Made by a program: the position numbers and the translations under genes. Positions 48,762 to 64,000 of a stretch of DNA of 64,000 nucleotides are shown piece by piece; the first letter of the stretch is position 1, and every line of letters begins with the position of its first letter. The stretch is from assembly GCA_025738555.1 (NCBI GenBank), contig JAOVFP010000010.1, forward strand, positions 2,170,001 through 2,234,000, read 5' to 3'. The notes under the pieces were generated by a model that worked only from the letters and a program-made list of their open reading frames with translations, ran no database searches and was not told the origin of the DNA. The DNA comes from Cyathus striatus. Its lineage: Eukaryota > Basidiomycota > Agaricomycetes > Agaricales > Nidulariaceae.

Positions 48762-49206
48762 TCACCTGACCAGTAATAGAACATTCACTGTGCCCCAGGG
48801 GACCCCACTGAATGCATTACAATGAAGTGGAGGGCTGAGACCAGCCCCCCCCCCCCCAACAAACCCAAGCCAACCCAGCCACAGGGAGACACCCTGGGGC
48901 CACTGCAGCACAGTAAAGAGGTGATAAGTCAGTTGCATGTATCTAGTCAAAGAATAAATATGCAAGTCAATCAAGACATCTGTCCAATCTGGGGTGTTCT
49001 AAGGTGAAGGAAAATTGTGGCATGACCAAATACATGCAGCACACTCTTTTATTGAAGGAGAACAGGGAAGGGATGATGAAGGACTTCCCGCCGAGATATG
49101 GGAGCCGCAAAGTAACTCCCAAGAAAATCAACAAGAGGATGACAATGCCTCCACTGTCGAATTCGATGTAGAAGAAAACCCATACAGTGAATATGACACA
49201 GGTTCA

Positions 49207-49401
49207 TGTCAAGAATAGAAGGGGAGAGTTGAAGAGCTGACCGTGGAGGAAGACCGGATTGAAAACGCTGACCGACGATAGTGACAGATGAAGCCGTGAA
49301 TTGCACAGAAACTACGATGCGCATACATACAGAGAACGATTACGTAACTATATTATGTAACTATGCAGCTGTGCCTCAACACGAACACCCAGATTCTAAC
49401 A
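49207..49401 (-). repeat. 3' LTR of the Copia-type element
   Basis: 195 bp, direct repeat of 60042-60236. The two differences are both CpG versus TpG/CpA. Confidence 0.92.
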
Positions 49402-50464
49402 CCCCCACTCGGGGAGAGGCACAGAGAAGAGGGGAGTGAAAGAGAAATAAAACAAACACCAATAAAATACTCCCCCACTGAAACTAAAATCCTTAACCCA
49501 TCATCCTTTCCATCCTTTTCTAGCCCCCACAGAACCTGATTTGGAAACAGGATGAGTGTCAATATCCTGGGCATAGAAGGCAAGATGTCCCTCTTCACAA
49601 GTCTCCACATCAGAATCGGAATCAAGGTCAGAGTCAGAAGCAATGAAACGAGCATGATTGGCAACAGGTGAAGGAGAGCGTTTACGACGACGGTCACAAG
49701 CTTCCTTGATAATCCTGTCCTTGATGCATTGGGGCATGTCGGCTATGCAACGGGAAGAGTGGTGACCAGGAAGACCACAACGATGGCAAACATCATTGTT
49801 CCGGGGGTTGAGCCAATCATAGGAGGGATCATCACCCTCAGAATCTGAATCACCTTTCTTAGCCTTGGGGTTCTTGCCCTGACCCCCCCTTTTGGCATAG
49901 TTTGCCAACTCAGGAACATCCCCCCCACTGAGGGCCACTTTCGTATCCTCCTGATCCGTTAACATCTTCTTCGTAGATGTGAGAGTCGGCTCTGTAGATT
50001 GTGATGTGAGGAGAGTGCGAATGATGGCGAAGGATGGGTGGAGATTCATGAGAATAGAGTCGACAACATCAAGGGGAGAGGGGGGGTGACCAAGGGCAGT
50101 GAGAGCGTCAGAGGCAGCAATGATATCCTGAATGTACACGGACACAGGTTGCCCGATATCATGGACAGGGTTGTAAAGGCGCTTCTTGAGCTCAAACCGA
50201 GATGCACGTGAGTCCTTCTGATACTCAGACTTGAGGCTGGTGTAAACAGCAAATGCTGTTTGAGCTGGGGATGTTTCTTTAAAGTGGGCATCACGAACGG
50301 CATTTGATGAAATGGTCTTGTAGAGAGCCATGCGAGCACAGGTGTCGATAGCAATCCATGCAGTGTGATCCTTGGAGTCCTCAACAGAAGGGGCAGTAGA
50401 CGTGCCTTTTATGTGCCCCAGCAAATCCTCATCCTCTCCAAATGTCATCTCCAGCTCCCTGTTC

Positions 50465-51203
50465 TGTAAGGTTAAGTGCGGTTGTCGATGTGTAGACTTG
50501 AGTTAGTTTGCGAGCACGGTTGCGTCCGTCAACCGTTGTGCTTCGTCGATTTGATTTGAAGTTATGCTTGTTGTTACGAGATGATAGTTGTAGCTTTGAA
50601 GACTTGAATCAAACTACAACCAAGAGAGAGATATGGGTAAACCAGAGTGAATACGATAAGCTTTGGGAAATAGAACTGATTAAGGGCTGCTCAATCCTAG
50701 AGCCACTGACCCTTAACATGACTGGATGAGGATAGGAATAGATGTAATGAGGTGTATTTCACTGAAGAGGAGTAGCTAGCTACAGAGGGGTTTATATATG
50801 TAAGTATCTAAGTGAGTCATATAAAATTTAAATAGTAAACTATAGTAAAGAAGGACATAGCTTTGAGGAGATGCATGTGGCAACGCGTGTTGAGTGTTGT
50901 CGCTTTTCTGCCGTTGTCGATTGCTGTGTCCGATTCCGTGAGTGTCGTCCGAGCCGAATCGGGATGTTTGGTTTCGGGGTTGTTTGGTTCTGCACGTGAC
51001 TTATTCGTTGGTTTCGGAACGCGTCGACTTTGGTGGAATAACTTTGTATTCCGCTGACTTCATCGCTCTCCGTCTTTGATCTGGCCTGTTCGGCATTTGC
51101 GCATAACGGTCTGGTGCGTATTTTAATTGTATTGTTGTTAAGACTCTGACGTGGGCTACGTATTATAGGTGATTTCATATGTAGGCCACTGGCAGGCCTT
51201 ACA
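50465..51203 (-). repeat. 3' LTR of the innermost Gypsy element
   Basis: 739 bp. TATATA-containing sequence at about 50790-50800 could act as a TATA box on either strand. It lies directly upstream of the antisense gene on the plus strand. Confidence 0.95.
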
Positions 51204-51394
51204 TCACCCGGGGAGTTTGTGATATTGACTCGAGCTGTAGTCAATATCATCATGATCGATAGGGATCGAGGTTGGCTCATACAATGCCTGGTCTGTGCAG
51301 CAGAAATGTGTGGATAAAGTCCGGCCGAGGTGAGTGCGAATGCGTGTACTTGCAATACCGTCTTATCCTTGTTGATTTCCTTGACTTTCGCACA

Positions 51395-52496
51395 ATGGCA
51401 CTTCGTCCTGGCTGCTTTGAAGACGTTGATGATGGGCATTTAAACTTTATGTTGAATGGGCTTTACGACGCAGGGATAGTGTACGTGGTTCGGGAGGCTG
51501 AACGCATCATGGAGGGGAACCTTGCAGGGGGTGGAGCAACATTGGGCATAGACCGGTTGGCTACGCGTTTGGTAAGTGCTTGTGTTCTTTGATACCTGGA
51601 TAATTTCTGACGCCTATTGCTGATATTAGCGGGGAATGCGAATTGTTGCGCTATTTTTATCCGCTTGGAAGTTTTTCCAGGCCGACATATCGTATGAGGA
51701 CGTGCAGCTGGTCTTAACGATTTTGACGGACTGTGCCAGAGCAGTGTTTTCGAACAGCAACATATTTCAAGCTTTAGCGGCGATGCGTGGGCTGTTATCG
51801 AGTGGGCAAAAGTCATGGTATTCTTCGGACATTGCCAATATTGAGCGAAAGGTGGCGGGGCTTGCGCACAGGAATAGTGTGAAGCGTGTGCCGACTGTGA
51901 AGGATATTCCGGGGTTGCAGCCTCCGGCTATTCCGCGTGTTACAGGGACGACGGCGGCACAAAGGTTGGATGGTCGTGCATCTCGAGAGGCATTGAGACT
52001 GCGGTGTGTATTCGTTGTATAAGGAGAGGGTGGGTGGGACTAATATGATTCGTTTTACTAGGATGGATCGTTTTGCCGCAGGTCATGCCACTTGGAATGA
52101 TGTCGACGAATCTCACGAGATGCCTGTGCCGTCTCTGGCTAACGTTGAGGGCGTGGCTGCTCCTTCGGATCATATCAACAATAATCCGCCTCCTGGTCGT
52201 TCGCCTTCGCTTCCTTCATTGCAAACGGTGTCCGATAGTTCCGCTCCGAGTATTAATTCGAATCCGACTATTCAATCTACGCCTCCTGCTGAAAATCCGG
52301 TGGATTCGCTTCTTGCACGTCCTCCCGATGGGTCCGTCATCATTACCGTACGTCGCTCTAGTTGCCACATCCCGATGTCTTGTTTTGATATCATTGTGTA
52401 TAGCCTGATGGAAGGCATTTCCGTGTGCACGATCTTCCATTTGGCTGGAAGATGGAGCTCGTATACGTTGATGATTCCGTTGTTATAAGCGATTGA
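51395..52496 (+). CDS. Antisense intron-containing gene inside the Gypsy element
   Basis: Four exons, 51395-51571, 51630-52003, 52062-52347 and 52404-52496; introns of 58, 58 and 56 bp with GTAAGT, GTGTGT and GTACGT donors and TAG acceptors, and CTGAC- or CTAAT-like branch points in the first two. Together 930 nt, 309 aa. Start MALRPGCFEDVDDGHLNFML; a helical N-terminal half (GIVYVVREAERIMEGNLAGG, QLVLTILTDCARAVFSNSNI); a Pro/Ser-rich disordered middle (PPPGRSPSLPSLQTVSDSS); C-terminal DGRHFRVHDLPFGWKMELVY. I recognise no family. It reads opposite to the element's gag-pol, ends about 125 bp from the pol 3' end, and starts about 190 bp from the 3' LTR edge. An earlier in-frame ATG at 51284 is possible. 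Introns survive because the element's genomic RNA is the antisense strand. Confidence 0.65.
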
Positions 52497-52620
52497 AGGG
52501 TATGCTAGGGCTTTGTTTTAGATGTTGTTCTTTTTATTGTATTTTGTGTATATTAAATCTTTTTGTAATATTTTTGTATAATACTTTTCTTTTTTTTCTT
52601 TTCGTGGTGACTGTTCCGTT

Positions 52621-55600
52621 TTAATGTGTGAGCGTAAGCAAATTTTGGAGAGGTGGTACCTCTTCTTCGTCATGTGTCATATCTTCTAAGTCGTCTTCGA
52701 CCGTGTCCATAACTTTTGTTACGGGGATTTTCTTGGGGTCTCGGATATGGTAAGGTACGAGTCGGAATGCTGCATATCGGAGTCGTGATACTGAACCATC
52801 AAGTTCTCCAAGGACATATGAGCCTCCTTTTGTACGTTGCAATATGACCATTGGCCCAATATACCGTGGTATGGTTTTGAATCTAGTGATAGTATGCTTG
52901 TATCTTGAATTCCTGACTAGTACTAATGATCCAGGCTGGAAATCGAAGTCCTTGATGTTTGCGGTTTCTTTTTCGAACTGTGCAATGGAAGCGTATCGAG
53001 CCTTCATCACTTTTTCTGAAATACGTTCTAGGTCTGCTGGGCGTTTCTGAAGCTGTCATGCTCGGTATGCGATTAAATCTTCAGTGCTAACGGTTTTGTT
53101 GAGCTTTGGTGCAAGATAAGTGGCTTCTGCTAAGTCAAAGGGAAGCACTGGTTCTATACCATGCGCGATATAGTATGGTGAGTACCCGGTTGACTTTTGA
53201 ACCATTACTCGTTCTGCCCATATTACAGAATGCGCTACTTGGGACCATCTTGTTTCATTGCCGTCGGCTGCCTTGACTAAAGCTTCTTGCACATCAAAGT
53301 GTCTGCGCTCGATAATGCCATTGGCCTGAGAGTTATAGGGGGAAATTCTAATATGGTGTACATTATACTTCTTAGCTAGGTAATCGCATGCTGCGATAAA
53401 TTGAGGTGCGTTATCGGATACTATTTCTTCGATAGCACCCCACCGACAAAGGATTTCTTCAAAGATAAAAGCTGCCAAGGTATTGGTATTCTCGTGTCGC
53501 AGCATTCGCCATTCCGGATATGATGATAAAGAGTCTTGGGCATGTACTATATATCGGAACCCGTTTGACTTAGGCATTAACATTGTGTCGATATGGACTT
53601 TACGGAATAACGCTGCTGGGGAAGGGGCTGTGGGAGGTATGTGAATCCGTTTGAGGAGTCGAATCTGGCATTCATGGCACGTCTTGATATACCACTTGAC
53701 GTCATTTTTGAGCTGAGGCCACCAGAAGCGTTCCAGCAGTCTGGTGCGTACAGTGAATAACCCTTTGTGACCGAGTTCATCATGAGCTTCCATGATAAGT
53801 CCTAGTCTTTTTTCTTCAGGAATGACGAGCTTATGTTTTCCATGTGCGTCCTTTTTCCATAGTCTATTGTCTTTTACAAAAAATTCTAGGCATTTGCGAA
53901 TAAACTTGGTGTATTGTGCGTCAGTCATTCCTTTGGGGCGAGCTGGGTGTTCAAGAAAGGCTTGAATTGAGCCAAGTTCCTGGTCTCTAGCTTTTGCTTT
54001 GTCCGTTCTGGGAATAGTAACAGCTTCTCCCATCATCATGTGGACGAGTTCTGAGGGTTTAACACCCTTCTCGTGAGAGCTTGGCTGATGACACCGCTTT
54101 GCTGGTGTTTCACATATACATGGCCTGGGGTGCTCGTAAATTGGCGATCGTGGTTTTACTCCCCAGTTCAGGACTTCTACTGCGAATGCGTTTGCATCGT
54201 CTATCCATTGCTCCCAGTCGTCGTCTATGTCTGGATCTTCTGGCGCTTTTGGCCTCCTGGACAGTCCGTCTGCAGCTTTATGGTCAACGCCTGGAATGTG
54301 TACAAGTTTGAAGGGTGAGAAAAGCAGTATTCCCGCAATCCATCGGTTTATGGTTGCGTTAGGCTGGATATCAGGGTTGTTCAGCATTCCTCGTATGTAT
54401 TTTGCGTCTGTTTCAATCGTGAAGTTTTTGATGCCTATAATGTATATTCGTAGGTCCTTGAGAGCGCGGAATAGGCCATATAATTCGAGTTTTGCTTGTG
54501 AGTACCGTTGTTCCCGTTCGTTCCACGATATTGAGCCAAAGCGGGAGGGATATCGTTTGCTGTCTGTGCCAAGTTGTAATAGGACATAGCCTACTCCCAT
54601 CCATGATGAGTCAACGGCTAAAATGACTTCTCTATCGCACAGGTAATCAATTGCTCGTATAGCTGGGCATTGTTTGACCAGCAGTTTCAGTGTCTCCATG
54701 GCCTCTAGTTGCTTTGGGCCGAACTCGAAGTCGGATTTCTTCTTGGTAAGTGCTACTAGGGGCTTAGTGTGCATAGAGTAATTTTTAATGAATATTCTTA
54801 TAGTGCCGCATACTCCCAGAAATCCTCGTACTTCGGTGAGGCTTTTGCAGATTGGCCAATCCAAGACTTTCTGTATTCTTGCGTCGTCTGGTAGGCGGCC
54901 TTCGTACGTGCATTTATGGCCTACAATGATTGCTGATGGCACACAGAAGTGTGATTTCTTGGCAGAGAAGGTTCCGCCCGCGTGTTTAATTCTCTGTATA
55001 ATCCTATTAACATTTTGCAGGTGTTCCCACACGAAACAGCGAATTCCTGGGTTTTCAGGAATAGTTTCATAGCCTCCGTTTGTTGTTTCATATCGGGTTG
55101 CCGGACCTTTTACTGGGACGTCGTCAACGAATGGGGCTGCGACATGTGGGATTTCGTCTTGTAGAAGAAAGGTAAGGTCGCCGTGTTGTATTTGCATTGA
55201 GTTTGTGTATCCCATGGGTATAGACGTTAGCCTTAGTGTACCGAGTGGAGTTTGGAACGTAGTCAGATCTCTGGATTCTATGTCAAGTGTCCTTTGGTCA
55301 AATCCTACAAAAAGGTCAAAGATTCCATAGCAGGCTCGTCCGCCAAAGGTTTCCGCGTAAGTCTCCACTATTGGTGGTACTCCACTATCCTTTATTGCTA
55401 CTGCGTTTAAGGGTTGGAGGTCGTGTACTAGCCGTAGGGACTTTTTATCCTTTTTGAGAACACAAAACCATCGCGATCGGTAGGATGCGCTTGATGGCTC
55501 ATATACGCCGGCTGCTATCTTGTCTTTGATTATCTGCACCACCTGATCGAATATGCCTGGGGGAATAGGGATGTTTCTGAGGACCCATGGTACGTGTTCG

Positions 55601-56178
55601 ATGGTGGGTATAACTACGGGATCAAAGTATTCATCGCTAAATTTCCCTTTTTCTTCTTCTGTCCAGGCAAAACCGTTTTCCTGTAGTCTTATGAGCTCGT
55701 GTACCAGTTTTTCCTCTTCTGGCCATAGAAAGTTGTCCGGGTTAATGTTCATTTCATCCTTCCATTCCTGGGTGTAGCGTTTTCCCGGCACAAAATCTGG
55801 TGGGTGCACTGGTAGTTTGGGCATATCGGCGAGAGGGTCTGATGGTATTCGCCTGACAATACGAAATCGTTCTGGGAGGGTAGTTGCTACTGGTTTGATC
55901 CGGTTCGCAACTTTCTTGTAGGCATATGAAGCTACAAGTTCGTAGTTTTCGGCTACGTCTTGTAGTGCGGATAGGGATACTTCAAAAATGTCTGCAATAA
56001 ATCTTGGTGGGTCGAACCTTTTGGATGCAAAGCATATTGGTGATATCATTGAGCAGTTGTCTTGTGCTTTTTGATTTGCATATAGCATTATCGAGGGTTT
56101 GTCTTGTCCCAGAGGGTCTGTTCCGGGTTGGTGAATAGGTCCGTCTCCTCGGGATATACCCGAATCATCGACTTTCAA
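52621..56178 (-). CDS. Gypsy pol: reverse transcriptase, RNase H, integrase
   Basis: Frame from 56178 to 53056, then after a single in-frame TGA (53056-53058) on to 52621. RT catalytic motif FVDD at about residue 349, preceded by conserved LRLVHDLQPLN and GIFDLFVGFDQRTL. RNase H: ILAVDSSWMGVGYVLLQ, ELYGLFRALKDL and TIETDAKYIRG. Integrase: zinc part HDELGHKGLF ... CHECQIR; catalytic core with VHIDTMLM, IVSDNAPQF and NGIIERRHFD (D,D,E). Tail: FQPGSLVLVRNSR and IPRYIGPMVILQR (GPY/F-like). There is no ATG at the frame start; TTG at 56178 overlaps the protease TGA in the run GATTTTTGA, which suggests -1 frameshifting or an unstarted pol. The TGA sits where CGA (Arg) would keep the integrase continuous. 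Confidence 0.93.
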
Positions 56179-57383
56179 AAATCCTCCTGTAAACTATTCG
56201 TTTGCGCAGTTCCTCCTGCGTGCAGGATATTTATGTTCTGTAGTTGTTTGGATTGATAGCGTCGGCGCGCAGTTGTGGGTACTGTGATAACGGTATGAGT
56301 GTTGGGGTCTTGGAGTACAAGATGCGCGTCTCCATTTATGAAATGGTGAATACTAGCTTGTGTTAGCGTGAAAAATGGAAGTCCCAGAAGCATGTCGTAC
56401 GATGCTTGTGGAACTACTTGTACTTGGACATAGAAGTTGGACGATCCGATAGACATTTTAAGGTCTGCAAGCATTCCCAAAGTCGAGCTTTTAGTAGTGT
56501 TTGCCGATTCTGTTTCTAGGACATAGTCAGATCGCAGGGGGAGGCCTAATTTCTCCCAGATGTCCTGTCTTAGGCCGATAATTTGTGACCCATTGTCGAC
56601 TATCGCTGTTACGGGGATATGGCTGTCTAACATAACGGATACTTCTCGTAGGTCTTCCTTTTTGTTGGCTACGATTTTCCCTGTAGTCTGACTGGTTGTT
56701 CCGACAGCATTGACTGATACGGCGTCTGAGATATATACTGAGTTTTGTGCTGCCATATCCGTTGCAATTCTTCTGCTGCTGCACATATCCTTTATGTGCT
56801 TTCTAAGCTCCGGTGCTACTGCGAATAGTTCTTCTTGTGTTAAGGTAACTGTACTTTCTAGGTCTTTGGCTAATACCCTTTTCAGGGTATCTTGGGATTC
56901 AATTGGCGCCGCATAGCGATACTGGGGCTGGTTATTGGAGGCATCGTTATTACTTGGTGCTTGCTTTGCACTGGTTTTCTTTTCTTCTTCCGATTTGCTT
57001 CGTGTTTTAGGTCCTTGATAAGGAGCACTTTTGTTCTTATCCATGCGCTTGCGTATGTCGTTAAGATCTCGTTGCGCCTGGTTGGCTAGGGTTTCCAGGA
57101 TCGGAATACGGTCCATATCGTGTTGTGTGAGCGGTTTTTCTTCATCATCTGCATCACTGCTTATTTCTTCTATGCTGGCAGTCATGGCTTTCTCGGTTGG
57201 GACTTCCCATGAGAACTGATCTGCTTTGGCAATAGGGACTGCTTCGACACAATTAGTCATAACTTTTTGAGCATGAGCGATGTTTTCGGCGCGTCCCCTG
57301 TTCCAGTTGTCCAGGCGTTCTTTGATATTTGTTCCTTGAGCCAGCTTGTTAGTGATACGGATTCCTTCTGGTGAGAGGACCAT
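56175..57383 (-). CDS. Gypsy protease region
   Basis: 402 codons. N-terminal linker of charged and Gln-rich sequence, then the retropepsin domain: VMLDSHIPVTAIVDNGSQII (catalytic DNGS in place of DTG/DSG), QDIWEKLGLPL, and YDMLLGLPFF near the end, as in basidiomycete Ty3/Gypsy proteases. It is in the same frame as gag; only one TGA and two codons separate the two frames, so gag-protease is probably meant to be one polyprotein. Confidence 0.85.
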   Translation of the reverse strand: MVLSPEGIRITNKLAQGTNIKERLDNWNRGRAENIAHAQKVMTNCVEAVPIAKADQFSWEVPTEKAMTASIEEISSDADDEEKPLTQHDMDRIPILETLANQAQRDLNDIRKRMDKNKSAPYQGPKTRSKSEEEKKTSAKQAPSNNDASNNQPQYRYAAPIESQDTLKRVLAKDLESTVTLTQEELFAVAPELRKHIKDMCSSRRIATDMAAQNSVYISDAVSVNAVGTTSQTTGKIVANKKEDLREVSVMLDSHIPVTAIVDNGSQIIGLRQDIWEKLGLPLRSDYVLETESANTTKSSTLGMLADLKMSIGSSNFYVQVQVVPQASYDMLLGLPFFTLTQASIHHFINGDAHLVLQDPNTHTVITVPTTARRRYQSKQLQNINILHAGGTAQTNSLQEDF

Positions 57384-57389
57384 ATTTCC

Positions 57390-58847
57390 TCATCCGAGTT
57401 TGCACAGTCCTTTCTTTTCGTATTCTGCGATATATGGGCAATTTGCTATTATATGTCCTGCCTCTGAGCAAAATAGGCATCCGTTAAAACGTGATGAGCT
57501 GCCTGGAGTCTCAGTATTGGTGCGGAACTTCTTTTTGTCTTCTTCTTTGGCTAATGCCAATACATTTACTGCAAGGGTTTGCACCAAAGACTCAGAGTTC
57601 ATGAGACGCTCAATGGCTGTCTCGTCGTAGTAGTTTTTGGAGACTGATGCTTGGTTTGCTTGTATGTTGTTGGCCTGGGGTAGGTTTGGATTTTGTCCTT
57701 GCGCCGGGTACGAGTTCATGTTGTATCCTTGATTCTGGTAGGGCTGTGGGCCGAAATTTTGGGGGTATCCAGAGGCCGTTTGGTTTTGAATTCCTTGGTT
57801 ATAGCCTGTAATTTGTGGTACTGACATGGCCTGGTTTTGTCCGTATGGTTGTTGCTGTTGGTTGTTTAGAGCATATCCTTGCATTGGTTGAATTTGGGGT
57901 ACTTGGTTATATGTGGGATATTGTGAATATGGTGCTGCAGCTGTCTGTGTGTATGGTTCGTAACCAGGGTATTGGATTGGTTGGACAGGCATTCCGAACA
58001 TTTGTGCACCACCACCCGTTGTACCATCATTTGGCGGGAGGAGGTGCATGGCTGCTTGATATATTTCTTCAAGCTTCCATGGTTCGTCTAGTTCGTGCTT
58101 GGGTTCCAACATATGTAACTCGTTTCTGATTCTTGCTCGGAATTCGATAGGGAAGCCAGTCATGAAGGAATTACTTATTTCCCTGTCAGTGACTTTCCCC
58201 TTTTCTTTGAGGTATTCTGCAAAGGTCAGAAATCCTCTATAGTATTCGCCCAATTGGTATCTGCCTGTCATTACTTTTTGTGATTGGGCAGCGCAATAAT
58301 ATTCGAGATCTATGGTGGTATACTTCTTTTCGCCATTGCATCCTGGGTATAGTTTTCTAATTTCTTCCTTGAATTGTTCCCAGTTATTGCGGACGTTCTT
58401 TGTGTGTACACGCCACAAATCTTCGACGCGCTGGTCTAGGTATTCGAAGGTCCACTGGATTTCTTCACTATCAGTGAGTCCGCTTGCAACTGCAAGATTA
58501 TGAATGCGTCTGAAGAATTGATCCAGAGTTACTGGACTGCCGTCAAATGATGGTGCGGCTTTTTCTCCGGGCGATGGCATAGTTCTGCGTGCCCTTGGGA
58601 GTGGCCCTTGGACATTGCTCTGTTCTTGATATGCATCCTCGTCCATGGTCCATTCCACTTTGCGAAGGTTTCCTACGCGTTCATCTGGATCAAATTTTAC
58701 GTTGGGTCGAAAGGTAGTGTTGGGTGGTGGAGTTGACTGAGGTGCGCGATCCAGAGGAGTTACGTTTTCTGGGTTAATAATGTTCGGGTTGATAGGGTTT
58801 GAGATTGGGCTTTGTCCCGTTCCATTGTCTGGGATAATTCCTGACAT
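57390..58847 (-). CDS. Gypsy gag
   Basis: 485 codons. Body: VTLDQFFRRIHNLAVASGLT, ENLWRVHT-like segments, NWEQFKEEIRKLYPGC, YRGFLTFAEYLKEKGKVTDR and NSFMTGFPIEFRARIRNEL, the usual capsid fold of fungal Ty3/Gypsy gag. A Gln/Pro/Tyr-rich linker follows, then a zinc knuckle CLFCSEAGHIIANC. The stop is TGA directly after KGLCKLG. Upstream of the ATG the frame stays open for about 65 codons without another ATG. Confidence 0.9.
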   Translation of the reverse strand: MSGIIPDNGTGQSPISNPINPNIINPENVTPLDRAPQSTPPPNTTFRPNVKFDPDERVGNLRKVEWTMDEDAYQEQSNVQGPLPRARRTMPSPGEKAAPSFDGSPVTLDQFFRRIHNLAVASGLTDSEEIQWTFEYLDQRVEDLWRVHTKNVRNNWEQFKEEIRKLYPGCNGEKKYTTIDLEYYCAAQSQKVMTGRYQLGEYYRGFLTFAEYLKEKGKVTDREISNSFMTGFPIEFRARIRNELHMLEPKHELDEPWKLEEIYQAAMHLLPPNDGTTGGGAQMFGMPVQPIQYPGYEPYTQTAAAPYSQYPTYNQVPQIQPMQGYALNNQQQQPYGQNQAMSVPQITGYNQGIQNQTASGYPQNFGPQPYQNQGYNMNSYPAQGQNPNLPQANNIQANQASVSKNYYDETAIERLMNSESLVQTLAVNVLALAKEEDKKKFRTNTETPGSSSRFNGCLFCSEAGHIIANCPYIAEYEKKGLCKLG

Positions 58848-59059
58848 GATTGGAGATGAAGTGTTGGACTCGTTAAGGGTGTAATCTGGATATGCAAGGA
58901 GGTCTTCGACTTCGGATAGTGAGCCGAATGATGAGTTTTGTGGATCGTTAATTGATAAACGTAGTTCTTGCGAGAGGACTCGTGTCGGTTTTTGTTGAAC
59001 TGGTGATTTGTTTCCTTCCGGTCTTCGTGAGATTTTGAAGTTTCAAATCGAATGAAGCC

Positions 59060-59077
59060 CCCTCGCGGTGGGCTCCA
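59060..59077 (-). promoter_or_regulatory. Primer-binding site of the innermost Gypsy element
   Basis: TGGAGCCCACCGCGAGGG begins 3 nt inside the 5' LTR on the minus strand. The TGG start would pair with a tRNA CCA end. Which tRNA was not determined. Confidence 0.6.
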
Positions 59078-59080
59078 AGT

Positions 59081-59819
59081 TGTAAGGTTAAGTGCGGTTG
59101 TCGATGTGTAGACTTGAGTTAGTTTGCGAGCACGGTTGCGTCCGTCAACCGTTGCGCTTCGTCGATTTGATTTGAAGTTATGCTTGTTGTTACGAGATGA
59201 TAGTTGTAGCTTTGAAGACTTGAATCAAACTACAACCAAGAGAGAGATATGGGTAAACCAGAGTGAATACGATAAGCTTTGGGAAATAGAACTGATTAAG
59301 GGCTGCTCAATCCTAGAGCCACTGACCCTTAACACGACTGGATGAGGATAGGAATAGATGTAATGAGGTGTATTTCACTGAAGAGGAGTAGCTAGCTACA
59401 GAGGGGTTTATATATGTAAGTATCTAAGTGAGTCATATAAAATTTAAATAGTAAACTATAGTAAAGAAGGACATAGCTTTGAGGAGATGCGTGTGGCAAT
59501 GCGTGTTGAGTGTTGTCGCTTTTCTGCCGTTGTCAATTGCTGTGTCCGATTCCGTGAGTGTCGTCCGAGCCGAATCGGGATGTTTGGTTTCGGGGTTGTT
59601 TGGTTCTGCACGTGACTTATTCGTTGGTTTCGGAACGCGTCGACTTTGGTGGAATAACTTTGTATTCCGCTGACTTCATCGCTCTCCGTCTTTGATCTGG
59701 CCTGTTCGGCATTTGCGCATAACGGTCTGGTGCGTATTTTAATTGTATTGTTGTTAAGACTCTGACGTGGGCTACGTATTATAGGTGATTTCATATGTAG
59801 GCCACTGGCAGGCCTTACA
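59081..59819 (-). repeat. 5' LTR of the innermost Gypsy element
   Basis: 739 bp; five differences from the 3' LTR, all at CpG sites. Confidence 0.95.
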
Positions 59820-60041
59820 GTTCCATGCAGGGTAGTTTGTCCCATCAAAACGGTTCTGGGAATCAAAGGTCCTGAGAAGTTCATAGACTGTTGGGGCCAT
59901 GGTGGTGGTTGACAGTGGTGGGAGGCAAAGAAAGAAGGAAGGGTGTGTGGGATCAAAAGATCAGAAGAGGAAGGTAAGAGATTGAAAGTTTGTTGGCAGG
60001 TTGAGTGGTGTAGAATTTAAGCACAGGCGGGGCCCATAACC

Positions 60042-60236
60042 TGTCAAGAATAGAAGGGGAGAGTTGAAGAGCTGACTGTGGAGGAAGACCGGATTGAAAA
60101 CGCTGACCGACGATAGTGACAGATGAAGCCGTGAATTGCACAGAAACTACGATGCACATACATACAGAGAACGATTACGTAACTATATTATGTAACTATG
60201 CAGCTGTGCCTCAACACGAACACCCAGATTCTAACA
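60042..60236 (-). repeat. 5' LTR of the Copia-type element
   Basis: 195 bp; ends TG...CA; followed on the right by the target duplication GTTCA. Confidence 0.92.
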
Positions 60237-62934: not shown

Positions 62935-63480
62935 CACCAAGAACTGCATGACTGCATCATTGAAATACAGGCCCTACAAGCCATTTAAATCAGGCGAAGT
63001 AAACACCTACAAGGACACCAGGAATTATAGGACATCAAAGCTCAGGAAATGAGGGATGCTACCCCACAAGACATGGGAGATACACTGAACAATAATGGTA
63101 CTCCCCCCAGCACCACTCCCTTCACCATGGAATCTATCACATTAGCTGACATCCTCTTCAACAAGGCTACCTCCCAGGTGCCCCCAACCACGGTGGATGA
63201 CACATTTATACAACACATCAGAGAGGGGTACTGAGAAGACAAATTGTTCAGCATCATTCTAGATGCACTGGAAACATACCCATGTTTCCCTGTGTGCAAC
63301 AGAGTAATTCATGTGTAGAACCTGACACATGAGGAAGTGGTTTGCATACCATGCAATTGTGAACTCATAATGACTATCCTCGATCAGGCCCACCAAATCC
63401 TAGGCCACTTTGGGGATCAACTGACTGTGGAATACATTTGCTGATGGTACATAAGTGTCAGCCAAATTTATCATTTAACA
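62935..63480 (+). pseudogene. Outer element, integrase start, truncated
   Basis: Only traces remain: AHQILGHFGDQLTVEYI at about 63385-63440 resembles the start of the integrase zinc domain, then stops. The catalytic core is absent; the sequence passes into the satellite. Confidence 0.55.
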
Positions 63481-63558
63481 GCAGTGTTATATGATATGAG
63501 ATATCATATAAGGACTATGAGTTATGAGTGAGGCATATATTATATGTAGTATACAGGT

Positions 63559-64000
63559 TACTCATAAAAACTCATTACTTTATGATTTCTATTGTTATTG
63601 TAATACTAGTATGTGTACTCATAAGTACTCATTACTTTATGTTTCCTATTGTTGTTGTAATACTATAATGCATACTCATAAGTTCTCATTACATTATGTT
63701 TCCTATTGTTGTTGTAATACTATTATGTGTACTCATAAGTACTCATTACATTATGTTTCCTATTGTTGTTGTAATACTATTATGCATACTCATAAGTACT
63801 CATTACTTTATATTTCCTATTGTTATTGTAATACTATTATGTGTACTCATAAGTACTCATTACATTATGTTTTATATTGTTATTGTAATAGTATTATGCA
63901 TACTCATTAGTACTCATTACTTTATGTTTCATATTATTATTGTAATACTAGTATGTGTACTCATAAGTACTCATTACTTTATGTTCTCTATTATTACTGT
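63559..64000. repeat. 57-bp satellite with 114-bp higher-order period
   Basis: TACTCATAAG or a close variant starts at 63559, 63616, 63673, 63730, 63787, 63844, 63901 and 63958, exactly 57 bp apart, running to the window edge. Units alternate between a preceding TATGTG and ATGCA, so the real period is 114 bp. Because 57 is a multiple of 3, one frame stays open and mimics a 19-residue repeat protein; I do not regard it as a gene. Confidence 0.9.

Follow-up and report, generated by a model that had tools for sequence, protein, structure and literature searches.

How can a retrotransposon carry a gene with three introns, when reverse transcription of spliced RNA erases introns? The question is raised by a 64,000-nucleotide window of the Cyathus striatus genome (contig JAOVFP010000010.1, positions 2,170,001 to 2,234,000; window positions are counted from its first letter). 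The window contains a minus-strand Ty3/Gypsy element bounded by long terminal repeats (LTRs), and a predicted spliced gene locates on the plus strand between the integrase end and the 3' LTR. Both this placement and the splice model had been proposed in a first-pass annotation, and both were reproduced here. Judged from the sequences, the antisense gene is very probably real and under selection.

A three-intron gene antisense to gag-pol

The antisense gene reads as four exons and three introns, which join to 309 codons closed by a TGA at 52494–52496. Exon 1 (51395–51571; 59 codons) has 177 nt, also in the distant relative at locus L067, and 174 nt in those at L073 and L074. Intron 1 (51572–51629; 58 nt, phase 0) runs from GTAAGT to TATTAG with a branch-like CTGAC, and intron 2 (52004–52061; 58 nt, phase 2) contains a branch-like CTAAT. 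Between them lies exon 2 (51630–52003), whose 374 nt are equal in length in L067. Exon 3 (52062–52347) encodes a stretch rich in serine, proline and asparagine, presumably disordered. It is separated by intron 3 (52348–52403; 56 nt, phase 0) from exon 4 (52404–52496), which starts with PDGR..RV, includes the stop, and was modelled in L067 and by hand in L073 and L074. All three introns are GT-AG. Motifs fitting YTRAY were found in 17/17 introns read, at −22 to −25 from the intron end for introns 1 and 2 and at −19 for intron 3. When the bases were shuffled 20,000 times with the exon coordinates fixed, the same 309 codons were never open; the rate of alternative splice models lies outside this control.

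The window copy was compared with L071, L072, L067 and further loci of the 107-Mb genome (24 contigs, numbered with the prefix C below). Five further close copies were found; the 309 codons are intact in three, frameshifted in one and truncated in one. Among the four intact copies of the six (window included), gaps fall at 0 of 927 coding positions, and the introns show 5–16 gapped columns per pair. Each pair of intact copies differs by 64–104 changes at third codon positions, 13–24 at first and 8–17 at second positions. The ratio of nonsynonymous to synonymous substitution rates (dN/dS) of the antisense gene is 0.067–0.160 (10 pairs of five copies, the pairs not being independent). In all four intact copies, the remaining five frames of the spliced sequence contain 5–18 stops. 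The first-pass annotation had expected a real gene to show dN/dS below 1 and to be free of stops and random indels in other copies; the ratio indicates strong constraint, and the frame is free of such damage in four of the six copies. The spliced antisense frame is under strong purifying selection among the element copies, and the selection on its protein is apparently similar to that on pol.

The identity between copies, computed in blocks of 200, changes along the element. The window copy and L071 are 96–100% identical from 54064 through gag and 72–87% identical over 51264–53863, which covers integrase and the antisense gene. L071 and L072 are 94–99% identical over 52264–54463 and 80–83% over 51464–52263 (exons 1–3), a stretch where L072 and the window are 84–95% identical. 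L072 has a window-type exon 1–3 stretch inside L071-type surroundings. Relative to the window, L071 and L072 are mosaic, with sharp identity steps at 53864–54264 (reverse transcriptase (RT)/integrase) and at the ends of the antisense cassette (51464–52264). By these steps, the coding cassette has been exchanged between elements, as would be expected from template switching or gene conversion.

Spread of the gene among related elements

Protein searches of the genome found homologues down to about 17–22% identity, antisense and beyond pol. L067 (C9) has 294 codons, introns of 65, 60 and 61 nt, and 36–48% identity by exon. The matches at L073 (C3), L074 (C9) and L075 (C11) were initially insignificant (E 3.35, 0.17 and 4.63) and lie antisense just beyond related pol. 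Once read, L073 gave a model of 243 codons and L074 one of 230, and L075 keeps the first two introns with an early stop. The phases 0-2-0 are common to all four spliced types (window type, L067, L073 and L074); in L073 and L074, introns 1 and 2 are the longest solutions of an enumeration restricted to stretches around the expected places, and intron 3 was set manually according to phase and position. L073 and L074 are 52% identical over the N-terminal piece. A profile of the window group together with P0001, an annotated Cyathus striatus protein described below, matched the L073/L074 profile with a probability of 95.9% and E 5e-9 (one comparison), at 17% identity over 145 columns.

The pol search, in which the best 44 of 1101 candidates were scored, gave at least 17 pol loci at 63% identity or more. 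The listed pol loci are a lower bound, since the element of L068, which has a decayed gene copy, is absent from the list. The antisense gene or its remnant, always antisense, was found at 12 of the 13 listed pol loci whose identity is 70% or higher. On C15 a distance of 5.3 kb separates the gene from pol, and the remnant at C5:978882 is limited to an exon 4 next to an integrase tail, some 5 kb from the pol match. At the thirteenth locus, C14:841729, pol residues 86–601 alone matched. The listed pol loci with about 50% identity belong to other lineages, and none of them has a gene match beside it. Two weak matches with no listed pol beside them, C2:1167094 (E 4.0) and C7:1885458 (E 0.18), were taken as chance. 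The reading of loci covered those other than C1:6925111, C10:2365438 and the regions beyond pol at C2:6965897, C4:5816027 and C20:1966267. Judged by this distribution, the antisense gene is a feature of an element clade in this genome, not a one-off capture.

A spliced relative locates at L069, on the minus strand at C10:2510007–2510713 (L069:6507–7213; end set by hand), with a protein match at C10:2510087–2510713. Its predicted protein has 198 aa, and its introns 1 and 2 are in the phases of the antisense gene. The annotated BDQ17DRAFT_1366700 (P0001) of Cyathus striatus is also 198 aa long and differs from it in 8 residues (hand count), which supports the L069 splice model. L069 lies in single-copy DNA: its surrounding 5.5 kb have no genomic match other than themselves, and no match to the element pol was found within the 10 kb of L069 at E 0.01. 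L069 could be the source or a descendant of the element gene; a tree of nine N-terminal domains has long branches and gives no verdict between the two. Another match, at C10:2365438–2365629, is 42% identical to P0001 (E 7e-7). In the protein set, where searches require shared 5-residue words and only the best-ranked candidates were scored, the 309-aa query and profile A6 gave no protein, and profile A1 gave one, P0001. The first-pass annotation had offered a captured host gene or an element-encoded regulator. A one-off capture does not fit the distribution and a function for the element is favoured; L069 may represent a captured source.

Upstream region and carrier element

Just inside the 3' LTR border, at 51220–51249, lies the inverted repeat TGATATTGAC-N10-GTCAATATCA, a candidate operator or RNA hairpin. 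The pattern occurs exactly at eight places in the 107-Mb genome, all 166–184 bp before the ATG of a member of the antisense gene family (window 51220–51249, C3:1007434, C4:2086367, C9:3411645, C11:1315780, C11:2012347, C11:3503992 and C11:4272377). Their 10-bp arms are identical and their 10-nt spacers variable. The reversed control pattern had no match in the genome. No extra place appeared at one mismatch, and with up to two mismatches there was one, C4:5740148, without known link. A hairpin is predicted for both strands of the window repeat (−13.6 and −12.8 kcal/mol), so that the repeat could act as a DNA operator or as an RNA signal. Further downstream, a TATA-like box (GATAAAG) is found on the plus strand at 51313–51319, 82 bp before the ATG. 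Across nine mutually related loci (window, L072, L071, L004, L005, L067, L073, L074 and L075), the LTR-end motif starts 177–205 bp, the inverted repeat 157–184 bp and the TATA-like box 60–88 bp before the ATG. A match to [GT]ATA[AT]A[AG] at −60 to −88 is present in 9/9 of these loci, a count to be read with their relatedness and without a shuffle control. With the TATA-like box and the inverted repeat in the interval from LTR to ATG, the promoter need not be supplied by the LTR. It had been suggested that the upstream LTR drives the gene; the position of the LTR was as described, but the promoter is likely to lie between the LTR and the ATG.

The carrier is a Ty3/Gypsy element (Metaviridae), with the corresponding pol order, TG..CA LTR ends, a target duplication and a primer binding site. 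Pfam matches give the domain order protease, RT, RNase H and integrase on the minus strand, with RVT_1 and rve below the curated cut-offs and the others above them. The 3' LTR (50465–51203) and the 5' LTR (59081–59819), both on the minus strand, are 739 bp long and 99.3% identical (5 mismatches). The element is flanked by a 4-bp target duplication, GTTC, and 4 bp were found in both copies checked (window and L071). A stretch like a primer binding site, TGGAGCCCACCGCGAGGGG (59059–59077, minus strand), adjoins the 5' LTR and is shared by L071 and L072. By eye, no clear purine run was seen on the sense strand where it adjoins the 3' LTR, and the inverted repeat lies there instead.

The gag frame (57390–59042, minus strand; 550 codons) gave only sub-threshold zinc-finger matches near its end and is closed by a stop in the window copy. 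It is followed on the same strand by the aspartic protease and linker (56175–57389; PF13650, DUF4100), by RT, RNase H and integrase (53056–56193; 1045 codons), and by the integrase C-terminal tail (52621–53055), which an in-frame stop separates in the window copy. A chromodomain was not found by Pfam in the window gag-pol, and the tail gave only sub-threshold SH3_Tf2-1 and bromodomain matches. The window copy has two in-frame stops in gag-pol, and its relatives have other stops in pol. The stops at the gag/pro and pol/tail borders were considered as recoding signals and rejected; since the corresponding positions in L071, L072 and L067 are free of stops, they were taken as damage of the window copy, which is young by its LTRs yet damaged. 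In L072, gag and pro are in different frames. The pro and pol frames differ, with a short overlap at 56175–56193 around GGATTTTTGA, alike in L071 and L072, where programmed frameshifting may occur.

There are at least 41 LTR matches in the genome, and 24 of the 30 LTR loci read (L037–L066) have no window-like element interior within about 1.5 kb, so most of the loci are probably solo LTRs. A Copia-type gag open reading frame (ORF; Retrotran_gag_2) lies at 49501–50502, directly beside the left LTR, and Copia-like stretches are also found near 49050–49340 and 59950–60170. The Ty3 element seems to be nested in a Copia-type element. A 57-bp tandem repeat array with at least 7 in-register copies (63445–64000) reaches the window end.

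Function and comparison with known systems

We favour, with some confidence, an accessory gene of this Ty3/Gypsy lineage that has its own promoter and encodes a nuclear regulator acting in trans; by analogy, nuclear regulation is its most likely function. RNA polymerase II would transcribe the antisense gene rightwards, using a promoter formed by the inverted repeat and the TATA-like box close to the inner edge of the 3' LTR, and the host spliceosome would remove the three introns. The introns would pass through transposition intact, since only their complement is present in the genomic RNA. Antisense placement, proposed in the first-pass annotation as the explanation of intron survival, would be a sufficient reason, and the same three phases fit deeply diverged copies. 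Retrotransposition-indicator genes follow the same principle, as an intron opposite to the genomic RNA strand is not spliced from that RNA. They are laboratory constructs whose intron is placed to be lost, whereas the Cyathus introns persist naturally. In the predicted protein, a helical N-terminal domain (as in the model of the solo relative P0001) would be joined by a linker rich in serine and proline to a short tail at the C-terminus. The least certain step is that it may work in the nucleus in trans on the expression of its own element, probably via the inverted repeat, in a mode like that of HBZ or the plant antisense accessory proteins. A more specific form is tentative and itself somewhat doubtful. 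Here the 10-10-10 inverted repeat operator, the TATA-type promoter and the three-intron gene would make up an antisense module, whose product binds the repeat and controls the element, whose introns are carried unspliced through many rounds of reverse transcription and whose cassettes are exchanged.

Several points weigh against a regulator under selection. Some shallow control pairs gave higher dN/dS (gag W-L071 0.60, W being the window copy; integrase half L071-L072 0.275; tail L071-L072 0.685), as expected from their few changes. The inverted repeat is altered in L067 (8-nt spacer, one arm change) and L068 (arm changes), variants of a kind that the fixed-pattern search misses. It could instead serve reverse transcription, as no clear polypurine tract is seen at the 3' LTR. 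At the four listed pol loci of 63–68% identity no gene match was found; a gene of greater divergence might have escaped the search, and at C3:985751, one of the four, the match to pol ended at residue 880. The protein searches found no homologue outside Cyathus, by a method that does not rule out relatives in other fungi. No domain had been recognised before, and the Pfam scan likewise found none in five family members, two being N-terminal pieces. Structure-based comparison, of the kind proposed in the first-pass annotation, gave no significant fold match; a CTD-interacting domain (CID) or VHS-kind helical superhelix was among the folds considered. With neither a domain nor a significant fold match, the term regulator is based on the gene's position, on analogy and on the inverted repeat.

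An antisense frame may stay open by chance, but an artefact of gene finding is hardly credible here given the shuffles, the conserved codon-position pattern, splice sites and branch points, and the stops in every other frame of each intact copy. It is very improbable that a host gene was captured antisense and rides along without function for the element. L069, which agrees in the phases of introns 1 and 2 and lies in single-copy DNA outside detected elements, would suit such an origin; decay would then be expected after the first transpositions, whereas dN/dS is near 0.08 and the gene lies beside most related listed pol loci. The single-copy surroundings of L069, its distance from any pol match and its annotated counterpart could also point to a domesticated gene family serving the host, with L069 as the functional member and the other genes happening to lie in elements. 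This is improbable, though less so than a functionless passenger, as the selection is seen between the element copies themselves and the gene recombines with the element.

A further explanation, unlikely but more probable than these three, is that the antisense transcript or protein dampens gag-pol expression or particle function, as copy-number or superinfection control in the manner of self-encoded restriction factors. The gene runs opposite to gag-pol, and RNAs of the two strands can therefore pair; the coding cassette of L072 was swapped while its flanks stayed alike, as expected if specificity matters; and internal element sequence is missing at most of the LTR loci read. However, solo LTRs arise through ordinary recombination, the strong protein selection argues against an RNA-only role, and inhibition has no sign in the sequence results. 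The accessory gene encoding a trans-acting nuclear regulator is preferred to all four.

In elements that transpose via RNA, the three introns have apparently retained their position and phase. The locus would be a clear natural case of a retrotransposon that possesses an ordinary spliced gene by virtue of antisense coding. It offers a test object, a divergent protein family beside a nearly unchanging DNA palindrome. Repeat masking before gene calling may hide such genes.

Antisense accessory genes are known in plant LTR elements, as had been stated in the first-pass annotation; Grande gene23 and the RIRE2 and Retand TRP28 ORFs are described in PMC7264820 and PMC11963269. By these accounts they lie antisense between pol and the 3' LTR and are kept in most copies, as is the Cyathus gene. 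For gene23, a promoter upstream of the gene is reported to drive transcription (PMC7264820) and the product to be nuclear (PMC11963269). The plant genes differ in kingdom, and TRP28 (PF04195) was not found in five Cyathus family members. The word "intron" is absent from the main text of both papers.

In fungi, brtn is an antisense additional gene in Boty-like Ty3/Gypsy elements of Botrytis cinerea and Sclerotinia, credited to Zhao et al. 2011 (PMC7264820, PMC8365987, PMC4227169) and also mentioned for Boty of Botrytis in PMC5987419. As these citing papers, the source for brtn here, describe it, brtn resembles the Cyathus gene in lying antisense between pol and the 3' LTR of a fungal Ty3/Gypsy element; the likeness is one of description, with brtn introns and sequence outside the comparison. 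It differs in its ascomycete host, and according to PMC4227169 a CHROMO domain is present in a Boty-like gag-pol, whereas none was detected in the Cyathus element. In PMC3248453, a fungal survey, neither "antisense" nor "intron" appears in the main text. Searches of open-licence papers, the original brtn paper not among them, turned up no description of fungal LTR elements that conserve an antisense gene with several introns. To the first-pass annotation no established intron-bearing fungal family was known; brtn is a described fungal antisense accessory gene.

HBZ of human T-lymphotropic virus 1 (HTLV-1) is likewise described as an antisense, spliced accessory gene of an LTR element (PMC6237760, PMC11963269), the splicing in Cyathus being predicted. 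In contrast to HBZ, the Cyathus protein has no bZIP or other Pfam domain, and three short introns lie in its coding part. With this gene, a multi-intron basidiomycete clade joins the antisense accessory genes of plants, ascomycete Boty and deltaretroviruses, and the three-intron antisense family is new relative to the Retand, Grande, Boty and HTLV HBZ genes.
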